Source: Marinobacter bryozoorum
GTDB taxonomy: Bacteria > Pseudomonadota > Gammaproteobacteria > Pseudomonadales > Oleiphilaceae
DNA length: 64,000 nt
Direction: 5' to 3'
Assembly (NCBI RefSeq): GCF_023156245.1
Contig: NZ_JAKZAH010000016.1
Location: 1-64,000, forward strand
The notes under the pieces: generated by a model
Databases searched by the model: none
What the model was told of the DNA's origin: nothing
Seen by the model: the letters and a program-made list of their open reading frames with translations, nothing else
Program-made: the position numbers and the translations under genes
In this document: one piece after another, positions 55,182-63,953 of the stretch
How positions within the stretch are numbered: position 1 is the first letter of the stretch
Layout: each line of letters opens with the position of its first letter

Positions 55182-55395
55182 CCTTTAGCTACTCGCCGCA
55201 AGGGCGAGCCCAGGTAAAAGGCAACCTGCGGATCATTGCCCGTGACCCCTTTGAACCGGGGTCGGGGGCAGTTTTTCACCCCCGGGAGTGCCCGTCCAGA
55301 TTCCACCCCTTGCTTTAGCAGAAACTAAACTATGTTTACAGGCAGGTGCTGGTTCAAATTCAGCACCACCATGTTTCAGGGGAGGAGGTCTTTGC

Positions 55396-55887
55396 ATGAA
55401 TCGATATCTCGCGGGTGCGCTTGGCGGGTTGCTCGCCACCGTGCCAATGACCATCAAAATGGAAAAGGGACACCGCAAATTGCCCAGGGAAGAGCAATAC
55501 CCGTTGCCCCCGCGGGAAGTGACCGAAGACATAACTGACCGGTTACCCGTCCATAAGCCCCGTAGTGACACATCCATGACGCTACTTACCCTGGGGGCGC
55601 ACTTTCTCTACGGTGCCGCTGCGGGAAGTCTCTGGGGAGCGGTCGCAGACAAGAGTTCCCGTCCGGCGGTCGGTGGTGCGGCATTTGGGGCCGCTGTCTG
55701 GGCGGCAGGTTATCTTGGCTGGATTCCCGCTGCAAAAGTGCTGCGCCCGGCAACGCAACACCCGGTCCGACGAAACCTTTTGATGCTGGCGGTACACTGC
55801 ATGTGGGGCGCTTCCACGGCGGGATGGACCCGGGTGCTGACCGAACCTCGAACTCACGGGTTTGGGCGAAAGGCCCGACGGAGGTAG
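55396..55887 (+). CDS. Small hydrophobic membrane protein
   Basis: A 163-residue protein with a hydrophobic N-terminal segment and two later hydrophobic stretches (LLTLGAHFLYGAAAGSLWGAVA; AVGGAAFGAAVWAAGYLGWI), likely three or four helices with a basic tail (GFGRKARRR). DUF1440/YagU-like by general shape only. Strong GGAGGAGG Shine-Dalgarno; the longer frame from 55288 is unsupported. The 214-bp gap before it shows no gene. Confidence 0.7.
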   Translation: MNRYLAGALGGLLATVPMTIKMEKGHRKLPREEQYPLPPREVTEDITDRLPVHKPRSDTSMTLLTLGAHFLYGAAAGSLWGAVADKSSRPAVGGAAFGAAVWAAGYLGWIPAAKVLRPATQHPVRRNLLMLAVHCMWGASTAGWTRVLTEPRTHGFGRKARRR

Positions 55888-55986
55888 TGAAGGTTGGCTG
55901 ATACTCCGGTGGTAAGCGTGACCGTTAAGCGTGGACAGGCATCGAAAGAAGGTCTGTCCCGGTTTCCGGGCCCGACGCTCCGAGTC

Positions 55987-56521
55987 TTACCCGGTACCGT
56001 TCCTACCGTACCGTCGAACGTCCTCCAGGCTGGAAGGCCCGCCGCATGAGCTGCGGCGAACCACGCTCAGGGATCCATCGGTCTCCAGCACGACAGCTTC
56101 CACATCGTCCAGGGCCAGAATGCCCGATGACCTGCCCGCCGAGCGCACTTCATCCCGGGTCACCCGGGCCTGGCGAAGCGCCTGGTCCACAAACTGTCCC
56201 CGGTAGAGCAGGAGGGTCGGCTCGCCGGTCAGCACCTTGCGTACCCAGCGCAAGCGAAACTGGACCAGGTAACGACAAGCTGAAGCCCGATAAGGAGCGC
56301 AAAAGCCACTAGCCCGTTGGTCAGGGATATATTCCGGCTCAATAGCACGGTAGCCAGGGTGGAGCCCAGTGCCACAGTGAGAATCAGGCCAAAGGCGTTC
56401 AGTTCTGACTGAGTGCGCCTCCCTGAGGGTCGTAGGAAAACACCAGGAACACGTACGCCAGCACGCCTGCGATGAGCGTGCGCGCCAGCCCGGATCAACC
56501 GCTGAAAACCATCTCTGGCAT
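55987..56521 (-). pseudogene. Decayed YetF/DUF421-family membrane protein
   Basis: Three lesions break one recognisable DUF421 reading. The true start is the ATG at 56519-56521 (MPEMVFSG), codon 9 is TGA (56495-56497) where the family has Trp, one T is missing from the run at 56437-56440 (between YVFLV and LRPSGRRTQSELNAFG), and a further frameshift near 56265 separates QLVVTW from FRLRWVRKVLTGEPTLLLYRG. The tail DLDDVEAVVLETDGS-like ending (ALDDVEAVVLETDGSLSVV) is the family's C-terminus. Not functional unless the assembly is wrong. Confidence 0.85.
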
Positions 56522-56821
56522 AGGTTATTCCCCAGTATGCTGGTCCGGGCAAGTTCGGGAGACGTTGAACGTATTGAATACCTCTAAACCTAGGTGGGCT
56601 TACGTCTTCTGACAAGCTGCGTCCAAGTGTACCTGCCGTGGTGTGCGTCATTTTCCCATGTTACTGAGAGTGGTAATCTTACACCGCCTTGTAGGTGGTT
56701 TTTCTGATCTGAAAGTTGGTCTACGGCGCGGGAGATTGACTCCACCGGTTTTGTTTCCTCGCCGCCACATCATTAATGGATTGATTTGCCCATATTCATT
56801 TTGGGCCCAAGGAGGATTCTT

Positions 56822-57255
56822 ATGTCTGCCCGTCCCGATACATACACTCTGAAAGTGACCGTTGCCCGGTTGCTGGAACTCTCATACGCTCGCAATGAAG
56901 GTCTTACAGCTCGAATTTGCGTGAGGTCGGTCCAGCATCAGTCTCCGTCGCAAGTGACGGCACAGCAACATTGAGGGGCAAGGCGGGTAACGTCACGTTT
57001 TCCGCTAGTGAAGTGGTGCAGTCAATTGGTTTTCAGATTCGGCGGATAGGCGTCAACATGGAGGTGACAGAAGACGGCGAACTCGAATATACAGCGAGGT
57101 TTATGTTCGCTGGCGCCCTCGCATTATCTGCCCGCGGTACGATCGACGTAGAAGAGCTCATCCTCTCATGCTCGGGCCTTCTGTGCAGGGCTGCCAGGGC
57201 TCTGAGGTCCCGGACAGCCAGTACCGACCGGGAAATTGAGAGGGCGCTCAAATGA
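56822..57255 (+). pseudogene. Frameshifted hypothetical gene
   Basis: An ATG at 56822 with AAGGAGG seven bases upstream opens MSARPDTYTLKVTVARLLELSYARNEG, then ends early in its own frame. A second frame picks up after 56898 (SYSSNLREVGPASVSVASDG...) and continues to 57255. The join needs a -1 shift between 56897 and 56916. No family recognised. Its 3' end overlaps the lipoprotein start (ATGA), so the two are one operon. Sequencing error or true decay cannot be separated here. Confidence 0.5.
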
Positions 57256-57731
57256 ATCTGGCTCAATTCGTCCGTGGCTCAACGCTTGGGCTGGCGTTTG
57301 TGATCGCAGGCTGTGCAGGAAATCCAGGGCAGAAGCTGACAAGTGCCTCCCCGTTACAGGTTGCGTATCAGGAAATGGCAGCCGATTTGAATGCAGATCC
57401 CAGCTTGGCAACCTACGAAAAGCATTTGTCTCGCGAACTGCGCAAAGACATGGAAGCGGACCTAGGCCCCGATCGTGATGATCAAATTGAGTTCCTTGCA
57501 CCTCCGTTCTGGTATGAAGAGGTACAAAACTTCTATGAAGGAATCCGCGATGGAAGACAGTGCCTGACCGTGAACGGTATTTCTGTTGATGGCGACCCGA
57601 TAAGCGCTGGTATTGAGTATGTGGATGAGCAGGGAGCAAAAAAGATCAGGGCCGTAGAGATAGCTCTCTTTGAGCAGGCGGGGGAATTGCCGTTAGAGGT
57701 TTGGTGCCCAGTGCGTCCCGATGAAATTTGA
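57252..57731 (+). CDS. Hypothetical lipoprotein
   Basis: A 159-residue protein with a lipobox (VIAGCAG, Cys about residue 21). The mature part is acidic, with LATYEKHLSRELRKDMEADLGPDRD and IRDGRQCLTVNGISVDGDPISAGIEYVDEQGAKKIRAVEIALFEQ. No family recognised. It is coupled by four overlapping bases to the frameshifted gene upstream. Confidence 0.65.
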   Translation: MNLAQFVRGSTLGLAFVIAGCAGNPGQKLTSASPLQVAYQEMAADLNADPSLATYEKHLSRELRKDMEADLGPDRDDQIEFLAPPFWYEEVQNFYEGIRDGRQCLTVNGISVDGDPISAGIEYVDEQGAKKIRAVEIALFEQAGELPLEVWCPVRPDEI

Positions 57732-57778
57732 GCGACCCGTAAGAGAGTAACACCGACAACAGAGTGGAAAGGATTTCC

Positions 57779-58559
57779 ATGACACGTCCAAGGGAACAAC
57801 TCGTTTCGATCGCCGACACACCGTACTACCATGTTGTATCTCGGTGCGTACGTCGCACCTTCCTGTGTGGCTACGACCGGGACACCGGCAGGAACTACGA
57901 ACACCGTCGGCAATGGATTGAAGACCGGATTCGAATTCTGTCATCCCTGTTTTCGATCGATATCTGCTCGTATGCGGTGATGAGCAACCACTATCATCTG
58001 GTTGCAAAGCTGTCTCCGGAGTCGGCGGCGGAGTGGGATGACGACGAGGTCCTGGCTCGTTGGAGCAGCCTGTACAAAGGACCGCTGATTATTCAGCGTT
58101 ACCTCAAAGGTGAGTCGCTGGCCAGTGCCGAGCGCCGGTTCCTGGAGCGCACTGTCGCCGTCTACCGAAAGCGGCTTACGGAACTCAGCTGGTTCATGAA
58201 ATGCCTGAACGAGCCCATTGCCCGTGAAGCGAACCGGGAAGATGACTGCACTGGCCACTTCTGGGAATCCCGTTTTAAATCGCAGGCGCTGCTAACCGAG
58301 CAGGCCGTCCTGAGCTGCATGGCCTATGTGGACCTCAACCCGGTTAGAGCCGCCATGGCCGAAACACCGGAATCCTCGGACCACACCAGCATCAAGGAAA
58401 GGCTGGCGCCACAGTTTGATCTTGTGCAGGCGATCCAGAACCAGCTGGACTCCGGCTACCTGCGCCAGTTTCCGGTTTCCCTGAAGCCGCTACTGAACTT
58501 TGAGGGAAACGAGCGGAATGACCTCCGACGCGGCATTATGTTCAGCCTGCGGGACTACC
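57779..58559 (+). pseudogene. 5' part of Y1-type (RAYT/REP-associated) transposase gene
   Basis: Tyrosine single-strand transposase of the Y1_Tnp family. The N-terminus has YYHVVSRCVRRTFLCG, the HUH motif in VMSNHYHLVAKL, and a Tyr-containing helix region (WFMKCLNEPIAREANREDDCTGHFWESRFKSQALL; CMAYVDLNPVRAAMAE). The reading is cut after LRDYP where an IS is inserted; the rest resumes at 62072. Start ATG at 57779 with AAGGA upstream. Confidence 0.88.
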
Positions 58560-58579
58560 CTATGTGTCAAGGTAGTTGT

Positions 58580-60459
58580 GTGTGCCACAGCAGTGCGCAC
58601 AGTAAGACAGGAGTCATATGTGTAGCATGAGAAGCTGTTGAAATGATGGAGGAATCGACCCTCCGGAGTCTGCCTGCAGGGGCTGGCTTCAAACCATCCT
58701 GAGCGGCATTGGCTGAAGACCGTTGTCGTAAGCGTCAGGAGAAAAGGCTCACCCATGTGGTGTGTCAGGTAGGGACCGAGAAGGCGAGCACAAGCGAATC
58801 ATCGTTCAGGTGTCGAAATTGAAAACGGACATCAAAACCGGGGGCCACAACTATCCCCGGGATAAATCCATCGGAAACCTGCTTACTGGGTGGGTGGTGT
58901 CCGGCATAGAGATGGCGCGAGCTCGGTTCAGGCGTTTCAGCGGAACTGTGGGAACTCGAATCCATGATGCCAAGGGAGAGCATCAAGTGAAGAAAAGCAA
59001 GATGCAGAGTACCGATGCATGGTTCGAGGACGGATTGGTTCGTAGTAGCGATGATGGGCCTGTAATGGGCTCGGAGCGAAGGAGCCGAGTTGCTTCGGCT
59101 GATTCCATGGCCAACTTTATTTTAGGATGAGCCTGTGAACTCAGCGAAACCGTTTGATATTTCCAAGCGCCAGGTATGGGAGGCGTATCAGCGCGTTAAA
59201 TCAAATCGAGGTGCGGCCGGTGTAGATGGCCAGACGATTCAGGACTTTGATCGAGACTTGAGCAAGAACCTCTATCTGATTTGGAATCGGATATCGTCCG
59301 GCAGCTATTTCCCGCCGGCCGTCAAAGCAGTTCCAATTCCGAAGAAAAGTGGAGGGGAAAGATTGCTCGGGGTACCCACGGTTAGCGATCGTATAGCGCA
59401 AACTGTGGTTACTATGACGCTGGAACCTATCCTGGAACCTGTCTTTCATGTGGACTCGTACGGGTATCGGCGCGGGAAATCCGCGCATGATGCGCTTGCG
59501 ATCACGCGAAAACGGTGCTGGGAAAGGGACTGGGTGCTGGAGTATGACATCCGTGGCTTGTTTGATCATATTGATCATGAGCTATTGCTCAAGGCTCTTG
59601 ACCACCATTGCTCTGAATCCTGGGTGCTGCTGTATGTGAGGCGCTGGCTAACGGCACCGATGCAGACGAAAGATGGTAAGCAGGAAGGACGGAACGTTGG
59701 CACACCACAAGGTGGCCCGTTATCGCCAGTTCTGGCAAACCTGTTTCTGCATTATGCATTGGATCGTTGGCTGACGGTTCATCATCCGGATATCCCATTC
59801 TGCCGATATGCAGATGACGGAATACTGCATTGTCGAAGTGAGCGTGAGGCTCAGTATCTGCATTCGCAGTTAGATATGCGGCTAAGACAATGCGGTCTCG
59901 AAATGCATCCCGATAAAACGAAAGTTGTGTACTGCAAGGATAGTCGGCGACAAGGAAATCATGAAAACATTAAGTTCGATTTTCTTGGATATACGTTCAG
60001 GCCGAGGCGCATCGTCAACCGGAGCGGGAGAAGCTCGCTTGGTTTCACGCCAGCAGTAAGCCGTCAGTCGATGACGTCTATGAGGCAGGCGGTAAGACGA
60101 TGGCACCTGAACCTTCGAAGCGAGTTATCCATAGACCAGATTGCCAAAGCTTTGGCTCCACGAGTCCGGGGCTGGATCCGGTATTATTGTCGCTTCAGAG
60201 GGTCTGAATTTCAGCCGGTAGCAGATCACATCGATCGAGCCATCATTCGATGGGCGATGCGGAAATACAAGCGCTTGCGCGGCAAGAAGATGAGAGCAGT
60301 CTCATGGCTTGATCGTATAAAGCGCAAACACCCGAATTTGTTTGTCCACTGGAGTGGACGTGGTGCGTTTGCGGTTGAAGCAATGGGAGCCCGGTGAGCC
60401 GAGAGGTTCACGCCGGGTTCTGAGAGCAGCTGAGGGGGCAGTTCCCTTGGCTGACTCAC
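58580..60459 (+). mobile_element. Group II intron inside the IS left end
   Basis: About 1.88 kb. The likely 5' end is GTGTGCC at 58580 (GUGYG-type). The likely 3' end is CTCAC at 60455-60459, after a domain V-like stem (GAGCCGAGAGG...CGCCGGGTTCT near 60397-60421) and a domain VI-like hairpin (GCAGCTGAGGGGG...TTCCC). The enclosed RT/maturase ORF supports it. It sits directly after GTAGTTGT of the IS terminal repeat, so it is 15 bp from the tip. Boundaries are estimates by eye. Confidence 0.8.
59135..60397 (+). CDS. ltrA: Group II intron reverse transcriptase/maturase
   Basis: A 420-residue RT with the RT fingers-palm motifs in order: NRGAAGVDGQTIQDF, VPIPKKSGGERLLGVPTVSDRIAQ, SYGYRRGKSAHDAL, YDIRGLFDHIDHELL, GTPQGGPLSPVLANLFLHYALD, and the catalytic CRYADDGILHC. 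The C-terminal maturase (domain X) region is present (LAPRVRGWIRYYCRF). No H-N-H endonuclease domain, as in RmInt1-like introns that rely on replication-fork invasion. GTG start after AGGATGAGCCT. Confidence 0.92.
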   Translation: MNSAKPFDISKRQVWEAYQRVKSNRGAAGVDGQTIQDFDRDLSKNLYLIWNRISSGSYFPPAVKAVPIPKKSGGERLLGVPTVSDRIAQTVVTMTLEPILEPVFHVDSYGYRRGKSAHDALAITRKRCWERDWVLEYDIRGLFDHIDHELLLKALDHHCSESWVLLYVRRWLTAPMQTKDGKQEGRNVGTPQGGPLSPVLANLFLHYALDRWLTVHHPDIPFCRYADDGILHCRSEREAQYLHSQLDMRLRQCGLEMHPDKTKVVYCKDSRRQGNHENIKFDFLGYTFRPRRIVNRSGRSSLGFTPAVSRQSMTSMRQAVRRWHLNLRSELSIDQIAKALAPRVRGWIRYYCRFRGSEFQPVADHIDRAIIRWAMRKYKRLRGKKMRAVSWLDRIKRKHPNLFVHWSGRGAFAVEAMGAR

Positions 60460-60485
60460 CCGCCTGATGATTTCAGAGGACAACC

Positions 60486-60986
60486 ATGCCCCATTACTCA
60501 CCGGAACGAAAGGAAGCCATCCTTCAGAAGATGGCCCCACCGCATAGCCTGACTGTGTCTGAGTTGGCCAGGCAGGAAGGCATCAGCACCGCAACCTTGT
60601 ACAATTGGCGTAAAGCCGCCAGAGAACGAGGTGCCGTTTTGCCGTCGAACTCAGCCACGCCTGAAAGGTGGAGTAGCGAAGAGAAGTTCCGCATTGTTCT
60701 GGAGACCGCCCCGATGACCGAGGCGGAACTCGGTGAATATTGTCGCAAGCACGGTCTGTATCCGGAACAAATCGAAGCCTGGAAGACCGCCTGCATGGGT
60801 GCCAACGCCCAGTCTGACGAACAAGCCAGGCGTAACCGGAAAGCGGCGACAGACGAGAAAAAGCGCGTCAAAAAGCTTGAATCCGAATTACGTCGTAAGG
60901 AAAAAGCCCTGGCTGAAACAGCAGCGCTACTGACGCTGTCAAAAAAAGCCGAGGCGATCTGGGGCCCCAAAGACGAGGACGAATGA
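60486..60986 (+). CDS. IS transposase OrfA (helix-turn-helix)
   Basis: A 166-residue protein with an N-terminal HTH (PHYSPERKEAILQKMAPPHSLTVSELARQEGISTATLYNWRKAARERG), a middle domain and a C-terminal basic coiled coil (EKKRVKKLESELRRKEKALAETAALL), typical of two-frame IS3-like elements. It begins 26 bases after the intron and overlaps OrfB by four bases (ATGA). A decayed second copy lies at 63731-63953. Confidence 0.9.
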   Translation: MPHYSPERKEAILQKMAPPHSLTVSELARQEGISTATLYNWRKAARERGAVLPSNSATPERWSSEEKFRIVLETAPMTEAELGEYCRKHGLYPEQIEAWKTACMGANAQSDEQARRNRKAATDEKKRVKKLESELRRKEKALAETAALLTLSKKAEAIWGPKDEDE

Positions 60987-62029
60987 CCAGCCTCCCGGAT
61001 CGCCAGCAGGCCGTCGCTCTGATCGAAGAAGCGCAGAGCAACGGAGCCCGGCTGGTCAAGGCCTGTGCCTTGCTACATCTGAGTGTGCGCACCTTCCAGC
61101 GCTGGACGGCGGACAAGGCCGTCAAAGCGGACCAGAGACCGGTGGTGCCCAGACCGACGCCGACGAACAAGCTGACGGACGAGGAGCGTCAGGCTGTGGT
61201 GTCACTCAGCAATCAAAAGAAATACCAGAGCTGTCCGCCGGCATTCATCGTTGCGGACCAAATGGATCAGGGGCATTACCTAGCGTCGGAGTCGACCTTC
61301 TACCGTGTGCTGCGGGAACACGGTCAGGTTAACCCCAGAGGCCGCCAGAGAGCCCCACAGCCCAAGCGGCAGGCGACCACGCATAAAGCTACGGAACCCA
61401 ACCAACTGTGGTCGTGGGATATCTCGTGGCTGCCGGGACCGGCACGAGGCACCTGGTTCTATCTGTACCTGATGCTGGACGTCTACAGCCGCAAGATCGT
61501 TGGTCACGAGGTCTACCAGAGTGAAACGGGTGAGCTGGCCAGCGAGTTCATCGAAAAGGCGTACTGGCGCGAGCACCTGGCAGTCAGGGAGAAGCCTCTT
61601 GTGCTGCACTCGGACAATGGCAGCCCCATGAAGGCCTCGACCTTCCTGGAAAAGCTGTACGACCTGGGCATTACGCCCTCAAACAGCCGGCCCCGAGTGA
61701 GCAATGATAACGCCTACTCGGAGTCGCTGTTCAAAACCCTGAAGTTCCGACCAGGGTTCCCGGTCAATGGCTTCAGCACCATCGAGGACGCCCGTGACTG
61801 GGTGCTGGCCTTCGTGCGCTGGTACAACACCGAGCACCGTCACAGCGCCTTGAATTACGTAACACCTCAGCAGCGTCACGATGGCGAGGCTGGTCAGATC
61901 CTGGCTCAGCGCAAACAGGTGATCGAGGCTGCGAAGGCCAAGAACCCGCGGCGCTGGTCCGGTGATATCCGAAACTTCAGCTTGCCGGAATCAGTGACCC
62001 TGAATCCGGAAAAGGCGGCGAACTGTTAA
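60983..62029 (+). CDS. IS transposase OrfB (DDE integrase core)
   Basis: A 348-residue rve-fold transposase. The DDE residues fit NQLWSWDISWLPG (first Asp), VLHSDNGSPM (second Asp) and NDNAYSESLFKTLKFRP (Glu). The N-terminal part has a helical DNA-binding region. Starts inside OrfA's stop. No frameshift element is obvious between the two. Confidence 0.92.
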   Translation: MTSLPDRQQAVALIEEAQSNGARLVKACALLHLSVRTFQRWTADKAVKADQRPVVPRPTPTNKLTDEERQAVVSLSNQKKYQSCPPAFIVADQMDQGHYLASESTFYRVLREHGQVNPRGRQRAPQPKRQATTHKATEPNQLWSWDISWLPGPARGTWFYLYLMLDVYSRKIVGHEVYQSETGELASEFIEKAYWREHLAVREKPLVLHSDNGSPMKASTFLEKLYDLGITPSNSRPRVSNDNAYSESLFKTLKFRPGFPVNGFSTIEDARDWVLAFVRWYNTEHRHSALNYVTPQQRHDGEAGQILAQRKQVIEAAKAKNPRRWSGDIRNFSLPESVTLNPEKAANC

Positions 62030-62071
62030 AGAGCTGATGACTTAAACGCGACAACTACGTTGACAGACTCC

Positions 62072-62269
62072 GACTACCTGGAACTGGTTGATTACACCGG
62101 CCGGATTATCCGCCCTTCAAAGCGCGGCTATATACCTGACACCAAACCGCCGATCCTAAACCGCCTGGGCCTCTCGCTCGACGAATGGCTTCAGGAGGCC
62201 TGCGAATTCGAAGCGCGCTACGCTCAGAACCTGCGGGCAGAGCAGGGCAGGCGACGACGAGCTGTATAA
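62072..62269 (+). pseudogene. 3' part of the interrupted Y1 transposase gene
   Basis: Resumes DYLELVDYTGRIIRPSKRGYIPDTKPPILNRLGLSLDEWLQEACEFEARYAQNL and ends in an Arg-rich tail. This is the usual C-terminal DYLxLVDxTGR segment of Y1_Tnp proteins, joining LRDY of the 5' part across the IS. The flanking GACTACC copy lies at its first codons. Confidence 0.85.
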
Positions 62270-62297: not shown

Positions 62298-62468
62298 GGA
62301 ACTGGCCATGGCCAGCGCCATCGCGTGCGTTAAATTCGGCGATTAATGCCTGATTGTCGCAAAATTGGTCAAAACATAGCCAACGATGCTATGCAGAGTG
62401 CGATCACGACTGGAGCGGCAGTCTCGGCACGCGGTTTATTGGTTTTCTTTCTTGGCAGTGCCTGTCCC
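62298..62468. repeat. Direct repeat, copy 1 (about 170 bp)
   Basis: A diverged copy of 62757-62935. It includes a perfect CTGGCCATGGCCAG palindrome (62302-62315) and a 22-bp segment (62398-62419) identical to 62854-62875. Aligned blocks share about 70 to 80 percent identity by eye. Confidence 0.65.
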
Positions 62469-62487
62469 TGCATTTCGCTGCATTTTC

Positions 62488-62724
62488 GCTTTCGAAGAGG
62501 TCGGGAGCGTTCTCCAGCAGCTCGCGCTTCCAGGTACTGACCATGGTGGGGTGAATCTGGAAACGGGCGGCAATTTCGGATGTGGTCTGGTCACCCTTGA
62601 GGGCGGCCAGAGCAACTTTGGACTTGAATGATGCGCTGTATTGCTTGCGTTTCTTGCTCATGATTCTCCTCCTTGTGGAGATGATGAATCAGAGCTTAGG
62701 CACCTGTCCAAAATTTGGGGTCCA
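62488..62724 (-). mobile_element. Truncated IS3-family remnant (OrfA fragment plus end)
   Basis: On the minus strand, a TGGACCCCAAATTTTGGACA end (62705-62724), a AAGGAGGAG ribosome site and an IS3 OrfA fragment starting at 62661 (KRKQYSASFKSKVALAALKGDQTTSEIAARFQIHPTMVSTWKRELLENA) that breaks off after about 57 residues. Lies between the two direct repeats. Confidence 0.8.
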
Positions 62725-62756
62725 CTTCATTCCAGTCCCAGATATTGTTTTTCCAA

Positions 62757-62990: not shown

Positions 62991-63446
62991 TTATTTTTCC
63001 AGCTTGACGGCTGTCCCTGAGGCAACCAGGAACAACATTGATTTGTTGCCACCAGATATTTCACTGTAGTCTAAATCAATGCCAACAACTGCATCAGCAC
63101 CAATAGAGGCAGCCTCTCTACGAAGTTCATTCAAAGCGTAGATTCTGGCATCTCGCAAGGAACTTTGAGTGGCTTTACTCCGGCCTCCAAAAAAATCTCT
63201 ACCAGCAGAGAAGATATCTTTAAATATATTCATGCCCAGAACACACTCTGCAGTAATAATGTCCAGGCGCTCAGCAATTGGTAAATGTATGACACTTTCC
63301 GTAGTCAACACGACTCTGGCTTCGGTGTCCGATAACACGTCTTGACCGTCAGCCTCTTTATTATGCTTTTCGACACAGTCTTTACAAACGTCACCCTTTG
63401 CTGCCATAAATCCGAGATCTCGCCCACACTCTGCACATCTTGCCAT
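62991..63446 (-). CDS. YbjQ/UPF0145-domain protein with N-terminal zinc ribbon
   Basis: A 151-residue protein. An N-terminal Cys-x2-Cys / Cys-x2-Cys ribbon ([12 protein letters not shown] ... [10 protein letters not shown]) precedes a YbjQ-type domain ([67 protein letters not shown]). Members form pentamers and are of unknown function. ATG at 63446 (AAGGGGG upstream); the frame to 63488 is extension. Confidence 0.85.
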
Positions 63447-63619
63447 TGGAACCCCCTTTCTGAGTTGTAAGTTCAGTGTACACCACATAACGCTTGCAGC
63501 ATGCGCATCCTTGAAATGGAATCGAAGGCGTAATGTAAAAGGCGTCGCCTTGCCTGTACTGGTGTACGCCCAGCATGGGCATGAACTAATGGGATGAAAA
63601 TACCCTGTGGGAAGATCAC

Positions 63620-63953
63620 CGTCCAGCGCTGGAAGGTGCGTACACTAGGCACAGGCCTTGACCAGCCGGGCTCTGTTGCTCTGCGCTTCCTCGATCAGAG
63701 CGACGGCCTGCTGGCGATCCGGGAGGCTGGTCATTCGTCCTCGTCTTTGAGGCCCCAGATCGCCTCGGCTTTTTTTGACAGCGTCAGCAACGCTGCTGTC
63801 TCAGCCAGGGTTTTTTTCTTGCGCCGTAATTTTGGTTCAAGCTTTTTGACGCGCTTTTTCTCGTCTGTCGCCGCTTTCCGATTACGCCTGGCTTGTTCGT
63901 CAGACTGGGCGTTGGCACCCATGCAGGCGGTCTTCCAGGCTTCGATTTGTTCC
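63620..63953 (-). mobile_element. Decayed partial second copy of the two-ORF IS
   Basis: On the minus strand, the OrfA C-terminal part (63731-63953: MGANAQSDEQARRNRKAATDEKKRVKKLE and on) and the start of OrfB (MTSLPDRQQ onward) match the intact copy at 60800-61120. About 14 bases of OrfB are deleted, giving an early TAG (near 63647), and homology stops near 63620. It shows the element has been present more than once. Confidence 0.75.

Follow-up and report, generated by a model that had tools for sequence, protein, structure and literature searches.

The 64,000-nucleotide stretch of DNA analysed here (the window; positions 1-64000 of contig C35 in the 4.26 Mb draft genome of Marinobacter bryozoorum, assembled in 126 contigs) carries three nested layers: a group II intron lies within an insertion sequence (IS) of the IS3 family, which itself lies within a RAYT-like gene. 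Very probably, the IS inserted into the RAYT-like gene, and the intron, a mobile one related to class D, came to occupy the left terminal repeat of the IS by means of its exon-binding site 1 (EBS1), a guide loop that pairs with intron-binding site 1 (IBS1) of the 5' exon. Each layer belongs to a known type, and there is nothing unusual about the nesting itself. Of use beyond this is that terminal repeats at both ends are targeted in an IS3 subgroup and that the guide loop covaries, the IS group and the host being new. Other genomes (G), contigs (C) and loci (L) are cited by our own numbers. The features of the locus are as follows.

57779-58557, + strand: RAYT-like gene, part 1; the frame continues into the IS
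58554-58557, unstranded: target duplication ACTA, left copy, from comparison with other IS copies
58558-62072, + strand: IS3-family element, 3515 bp with the intron and 1634 bp without
58558-58579, + strand: IS left terminal repeat, which is also the 5' exon of the intron, from pairing and intron-free copies
58573-58579, + strand: IBS1, TAGTTGT, from the EBS1/IBS1 pairing analysis
58580-60460, + strand: group II intron, 1881 nucleotides, between TTGT and CGCC of the IS, from empty sites and Rfam
58648-58770, + strand: match to the group II intron D1D4-2 model (Rfam)
58847-58853, + strand: EBS1, ACAACTA, in the loop of a 7 bp hairpin, from the pairing analysis
59135-60397, + strand: intron-encoded reverse transcriptase (RT)/maturase of 420 residues, YADD at residue 225, from profile searches
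60385-60460, + strand: intron domains 5 and 6 (Rfam Intron_gpII)
60486-60986, + strand: IS OrfA (HTH_Tnp_1), start codon 25 bp 3' of the intron
60983-62029, + strand: IS OrfB (IS3 transposase; D146, D211, E247), from a profile search and residue reading
62051-62072, - strand: IS right terminal repeat, from pairing and intron-free copies
62073-62076, unstranded: target duplication ACTA, right copy, from comparison with other IS copies
62077-62269, + strand: RAYT-like gene, part 2; the joined reading aligns with intact homologues

Group II intron

Comparison with the empty site TTGT/CGCC delimits the insertion as exactly 58580-60460; since the bases at the two edges differ, these limits cannot slide. 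The Rfam matches score 92.0 bits for group-II-D1D4-2 (cut-off 36) and 50.3 bits for Intron_gpII (cut-off 40), and the encoded protein matches group_II_RT_mat with 399.9 bits (cut-off 300). A Pfam search of the protein returned an RT (130.8 bits) and a maturase (53.4 bits) as the sole matches and found no endonuclease domain. A preliminary description of this locus, made from the letters alone, had recognized a full group II intron with an RT ahead of OrfA, and these matches together with the exact empty site bear it out. Judged from its sequence, the intron looks complete and has the parts expected of a mobile group II intron, namely domains 1 and 5-6, an RT-maturase, an EBS1/IBS1 pair and an exact empty site; it presumably splices in the cell, and IS and intron may both be active at present. 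It sits in the leader of OrfA and therefore breaks no frame of the IS. The same intron is carried in records of Marinobacter sp. ATCH36, M. iranensis and Marinobacter sp. DY40_1A1.

Guide loop and target sites

EBS1 is complementary at 7/7 positions to the final seven bases of the 5' exon, TAGTTGT. These bases are a terminal-repeat motif of the IS, at the inner edge of which the intron is positioned. Guide and target covary. From a hand-chosen set of 19 introns, including that of the window, a loop pattern caught 17 and yielded 14 distinct EBS1/IBS1 pairs (it passed over L151 and L178, in both of which good pairing is visible by eye). The 14 guides match their own exons at a mean of 6.57/7 positions versus 4.76 for the exons of the others, with 0/20000 permutations as good. 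Compensated changes include ACATCTA/TAGATGT (L150), TTTCTAC/GTAGAAA (L179) and TATGGAT/ATCCATA (L251, from Sinorhizobium meliloti). An earlier choice of hairpins, giving an own mean of 5.83 and a cross mean of 4.92, was discarded as it had taken the wrong hairpins for several introns.

The sites of 12 introns were compared (window, G143, G014, G003, G132, G102, G079, G273, G169, L149, L150 and L151), each included for a DNA match to intron position 1 or an RT at least 64% identical. By eye, the 5' exon resembles the terminal repeat of this ISSpu6-like IS group in 11 of them, ending in AGTTGT (eight introns), AGATGT (two) or AGTTGC (one). Left or right placement covers seven of the 12 (no 3' exon was read for G102, G079, G273 and G169). 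Searches with tblastn found OrfA following the introns of the window, G143, G132 and L150, which are thus left-end and sense, and a reversed OrfB end following those of G003 and L149 (the latter weakly, E 3.6e-5), which are right-end and antisense; that of G014 is likewise right-end and antisense, as judged by its open reading frame and against the right end, free of introns, of the G132 element. In six relatives tblastn places the transposase genes on that side of the intron where they are expected. Close relatives occupy the left or right terminal repeats of related ISs, as RmInt2 is reported to do. Since the motif is present at both IS ends, relatives are found at one end or the other and lie clear of the transposase genes. 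Introns that are less close aim elsewhere, for instance at OrfB itself (L013 and L222).

A related intron lineage, at roughly 64% DNA identity, resides within the OrfB gene of related IS3 elements in L013, L222 and, by its 3' half alone, L048; its EBS1 is TGTCCCA, to which TGGGACA or TGGGATA corresponds. The intron of G132 (L042/L057/L143; G132:C1:502105-507469) is interrupted around intron positions 1127-1136 by some 3.5 kb of DNA, in which the reversed frames resemble, by eye, three tyrosine recombinases; if so, this is a four-deep nest.

IS3-family host element

The preliminary description had reported an IS with matching inverted ends between the gene halves. Such an element is indeed present: its end arms, 58565-58579 and 62051-62065 (15 bases), pair at 93% and the full ends at 16/22 positions, but the limits first given had to be corrected to 58558-62072. 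In other genomes of the genus, intron-free copies match 60461-62072 and carry directly upstream CCCTATG(T/C)GTCA...AGTTGT joined to CGCCTGA; TTGACAGACTCCG forms the right end, beyond which the flanking DNA differs between sites. The terminal repeats and intron boundaries, proposed at the outset as a check, thus hold in alignment with other copies. Without the intron the IS has the same length as the intact intron-free copies L005, L090 and L091, also 1634 bp. The left end is readable in 13 IS copies of at least 78% identity (window, L005, L006, L024, L033, L089-L093, L096, L105 and L145); the intron is present in 2/13, the window and L033 (G143), and absent from 11/13, of which L093 has a shortened end.

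A target duplication of 4 bp was found in four of the five copies with both flanks read: ACTA in the window, GAGG in L005, GCCC in L090 and CTAT in L093. GACTACC, proposed before as the duplication, is rejected: the true repeat, ACTA, is lengthened by chance, G being the last base of the IS and CC its first two. OrfB passes the IS3 transposase model NF033516 with 206.2 bits against a cut-off of 160 and contains the DDE triad, and the OrfA and OrfB frames overlap, with an A6 run and an open -1 frame ahead of OrfB. With a transposase over its cut-off, the triad, overlapping frames and a short direct duplication, the element is a member of the IS3 family. Among the 20 plasmid matches listed, the named elements are ISSpu6, ISSba13 and IS1240, with OrfB 53.8-54.5% identical over 99%; the element is assigned to an ISSpu6-like group. 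An ISSpu6-labelled copy in L255 begins with CCCCCTGTGTCAGGATTGTTGTC, like the left end of the window IS, but differs in having no intron in the copy read.

In L033 (G143) the intron-bearing IS breaks off inside OrfA, and the next frame resembles another transposase by eye. A promoter formed from two IS ends (TTGACA in the right end) was considered and dropped, the spacing being poor by eye; a scan of 58300-60700 gave two promoter-like sites versus 1.6 expected.

Interrupted RAYT-like gene

The reading that begins at 57779 enters the insert and ends at a stop at 58630, and the missing C-terminal end picks up at 62072, as the preliminary description had seen. Omission of the insert (58557 joined to 62077; 3519 bases, in frame) restores a frame of 972 bases, 323 residues and a stop. 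The rejoined protein aligns end to end, residues 1-323, with uninterrupted homologues, being 77.7% identical to L059 (G068) and 75.5% to L060 (G030), so that the suggested check on the rejoined gene came out in its favour. The uninterrupted target occurs as an exact 16-mer in the homologous genes L059, L060, L066, L068 and L250 (which overlaps L060), and in the M. bryozoorum genome the first part of the protein has three more matches over its full length (66-73%; C92, C38 and C97).

The identification as a Y1-type or RAYT transposase stands only in part. The gene has matches to Y1_Tnp and REP_Tyr_transpos, but these are weak: the first piece scores 19.2 (cut-off 23) and 40.5 (cut-off 80), below both, and the intact homologues exceed the cut-off in 1/3 cases for Y1_Tnp and in 0/3 for REP_Tyr_transpos. 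By curated cut-offs the assignment to the RAYT family is therefore weak for the window piece and the intact homologues alike, and we speak of a RAYT-like protein. The segments HYH and YVDLNPVRA, read by eye, are what we take to be its RAYT motifs. The window gene and its homologues, mostly under these cut-offs, differ from RAYT proteins in this respect; the window protein has 323 residues.

Empty sites, also proposed as a check, exist for the intron in the intron-free IS copies of the genus, but no orthologous RAYT-like gene free of the IS was found among 124 genus genomes searched with the flank 55200-57770, weaker matches not being followed. This flank has matches in 10/124 genomes, M. bryozoorum included; the only good one is in G030 (88% over 56621-57729), where RAYT residues 275-317 alone are left.

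History of the locus and alternative explanations

In the explanation that we favour, an ISSpu6-like element of the IS3 family would have entered the RAYT-like gene, duplicating ACTA and breaking the gene. A group II intron akin to RmInt1 and RmInt2 of class D would have lodged at the inner edge of the left terminal repeat, having found the site by pairing of its EBS1 loop with TAGTTGT; it would have reverse spliced into this site and then been copied into DNA by its own endonuclease-free RT, a route proposed here as it is described for RmInt1. The introns of the window and G143 are 97.7% identical, whereas identity between their IS bodies is 84.0% (538 columns), and the IS nearest to that of the window, in G100 (94.4%), is without an intron. 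With introns far more alike than their hosts and the nearest IS intron-free, it follows that the intron moves between ISs independently; on these identities the window and G143 introns have a more recent common origin than the ISs that carry them.

An IStron-like composite, in which the intron is a fixed passenger that entered the RAYT-like gene together with the IS, could account for the intact IS ends and the two intact transposase frames around the intron, which make joint transposition possible, and for G143 having the same kind of IS with the intron at the same place. The identities just given and the intron-free nearest IS exclude a fixed IS-intron unit, and close introns occupy other ISs and right ends, so that we regard the composite as quite improbable. 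The IS may nevertheless have arrived in the RAYT-like gene with the intron already aboard. That the order of events could be read off directly, as had been claimed, holds for each host being older than its own insertion, but the precedence of IS over intron is not established. The full order is only partly readable, because nesting shows just this relation; as to the last two insertions, the intron may have reached the IS either before or after the IS struck the gene.

A wrong contig path joining IS, intron and gene pieces would be conceivable in a draft of 126 contigs, all the more as two other IS copies of the same kind stop exactly at contig ends (G100). We consider such an artefact extremely improbable, however: just a single full copy of the IS and its intron turns up in this genome, a clean duplication flanks the IS, and a separate assembly, G143, has identical IS/intron junctions on a contig of 1,276,166 bases. 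The locus might instead consist of decaying remnants in which the EBS1 match is inherited history and reflects no current targeting; IS and intron are single-copy in the genome and many relatives are fragments. The frames and motifs are intact, however, and the intron copy in G143 belongs to another species representative, which makes decay rather unlikely. Several observations weigh against an EBS1-targeted, mobile intron in a transposed IS: L174 pairs poorly with its exon (5/7); L151 has an exon unlike an IS end, its RT (64%) being as near as that of L150 (65%); the 5' 551 nucleotides of the intron fold little better than shuffled sequences (z -1.45; 5/100 shuffles as good); and L091, with both flanks read, shows no target duplication.

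Relation to known introns

Most bacterial intron-encoded proteins lie in mobile elements, for example plasmids or ISs, according to PMC7923331, and introns inside ISs are described in PMC4238363 and PMC5894124. With the second intron lineage in OrfB of related ISs, these accounts run counter to the earlier view that such nested hosts are rare. In PMC4238363, RmInt1 is described as a class D intron in the transposase region of ISRm2011-2. Like RmInt1 (class D/IIB3, IS-borne, without an endonuclease domain), the window intron is IS-borne and endonuclease-free. RmInt1, by the same paper, lies in transposase coding sequence and leaves the transposase dependent on splicing, whereas the window intron and its relatives lie in the OrfA leader or beyond OrfB.

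RmInt2 of S. meliloti is reported in PMC5894124 to use both inverted repeats of ISRm17. Two introns of S. meliloti GR4 have flanks that differ up to CTAGTGCCCATCCATA, at which point the intron begins; they come from replicons named in PMC5894124 and are presumably RmInt2. Like the window intron they appear to sit at IS inverted-repeat sequence, their EBS1 TATGGAT pairing 7/7 with ATCCATA; the bacterial class, the IS and the target sequence are other than those of the window intron. Their encoded proteins are 57.1% identical to that of the window, and the intron DNA is about 64% identical over the aligning part. With this identity and no endonuclease match, the window intron appears to be related to RmInt1 and RmInt2 of class D. 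At one of the two loci, L252 (S. meliloti GR4 pRmeGR4d), a second intron of this kind faces the first within 7.2 kb, as would be seen if one IS carried an intron at each end. Literature searches on nested introns, Marinobacter introns, IS-disrupted RAYT genes and Marinobacter phosphite genes gave nothing usable, from which no absence is claimed.

A broader proposal, which is tentative and on balance doubtful, is that an endonuclease-free intron lineage has specialised in the end repeats, left or right, of ISSpu6-like IS3 elements, sparing the transposase genes and the outer ends and spreading by retrohoming combined with IS transposition. If true, end-repeat targeting would, with RmInt2 and ISRm17, be a repeated strategy that converts transposon spread into intron spread. 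The nested locus alone is a catalogue entry; the empty IS ends, left- and right-end insertions and covarying guide loops form a natural series with clear bounds, in which one can study whether a host transposon is blocked, tolerated or exploited by a retroelement that resides in its end repeats.

Intron fragments and neighbouring sequences

A piece of the RT gene of the window intron type, 97-98% identical, occurs in 11 genus genomes (L036-L041, L043-L045, L008 and L025), and also in L112/L139 (G379, from another family) and in L205, L210, L211 and L217 (Halomonas, two Vibrio and Marinobacter). It always stops at intron position 1301 (window 59880), abutting a block that hardly varies between loci (99.67-99.94% identity over 3058-3059 bases in the last four). 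The block codes for a LysR regulator, a 2-hydroxyacid-type dehydrogenase and a PhnE permease, and we take it to be a ptx phosphite cassette. The other edge of the piece varies, with seven distinct starts in the 11 genus loci, and its far side resembles the end of a Tn3-type transposon by eye. Piece and block perhaps reflect one-ended transposition of a widely shared cassette. Plasmids of M. nauticus VT8 and Marinobacter sp. NP-4(2019) match the same part of the intron.

Three further sequences lie 3' of the RAYT-like gene in the window. A fragment of a second copy of the window IS (63619-63953, - strand), 92% identical to 60764-61109, is 1.5 kb away. A dispersed repeat of about 250 bp (62483-62730), 90-99% identical in several genus genomes, overlaps the start of a lone IS3-type orfA (62404-62661, - strand) without an orfB. 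A repeat of about 76-80 bp at approximately 63483-63563 matches at 82-89% in many genus genomes, with several per genome, sometimes a few kilobases apart, and lies directly upstream of a reversed YbjQ-like gene (62991-63488); we presume that it resembles an integron attC site.

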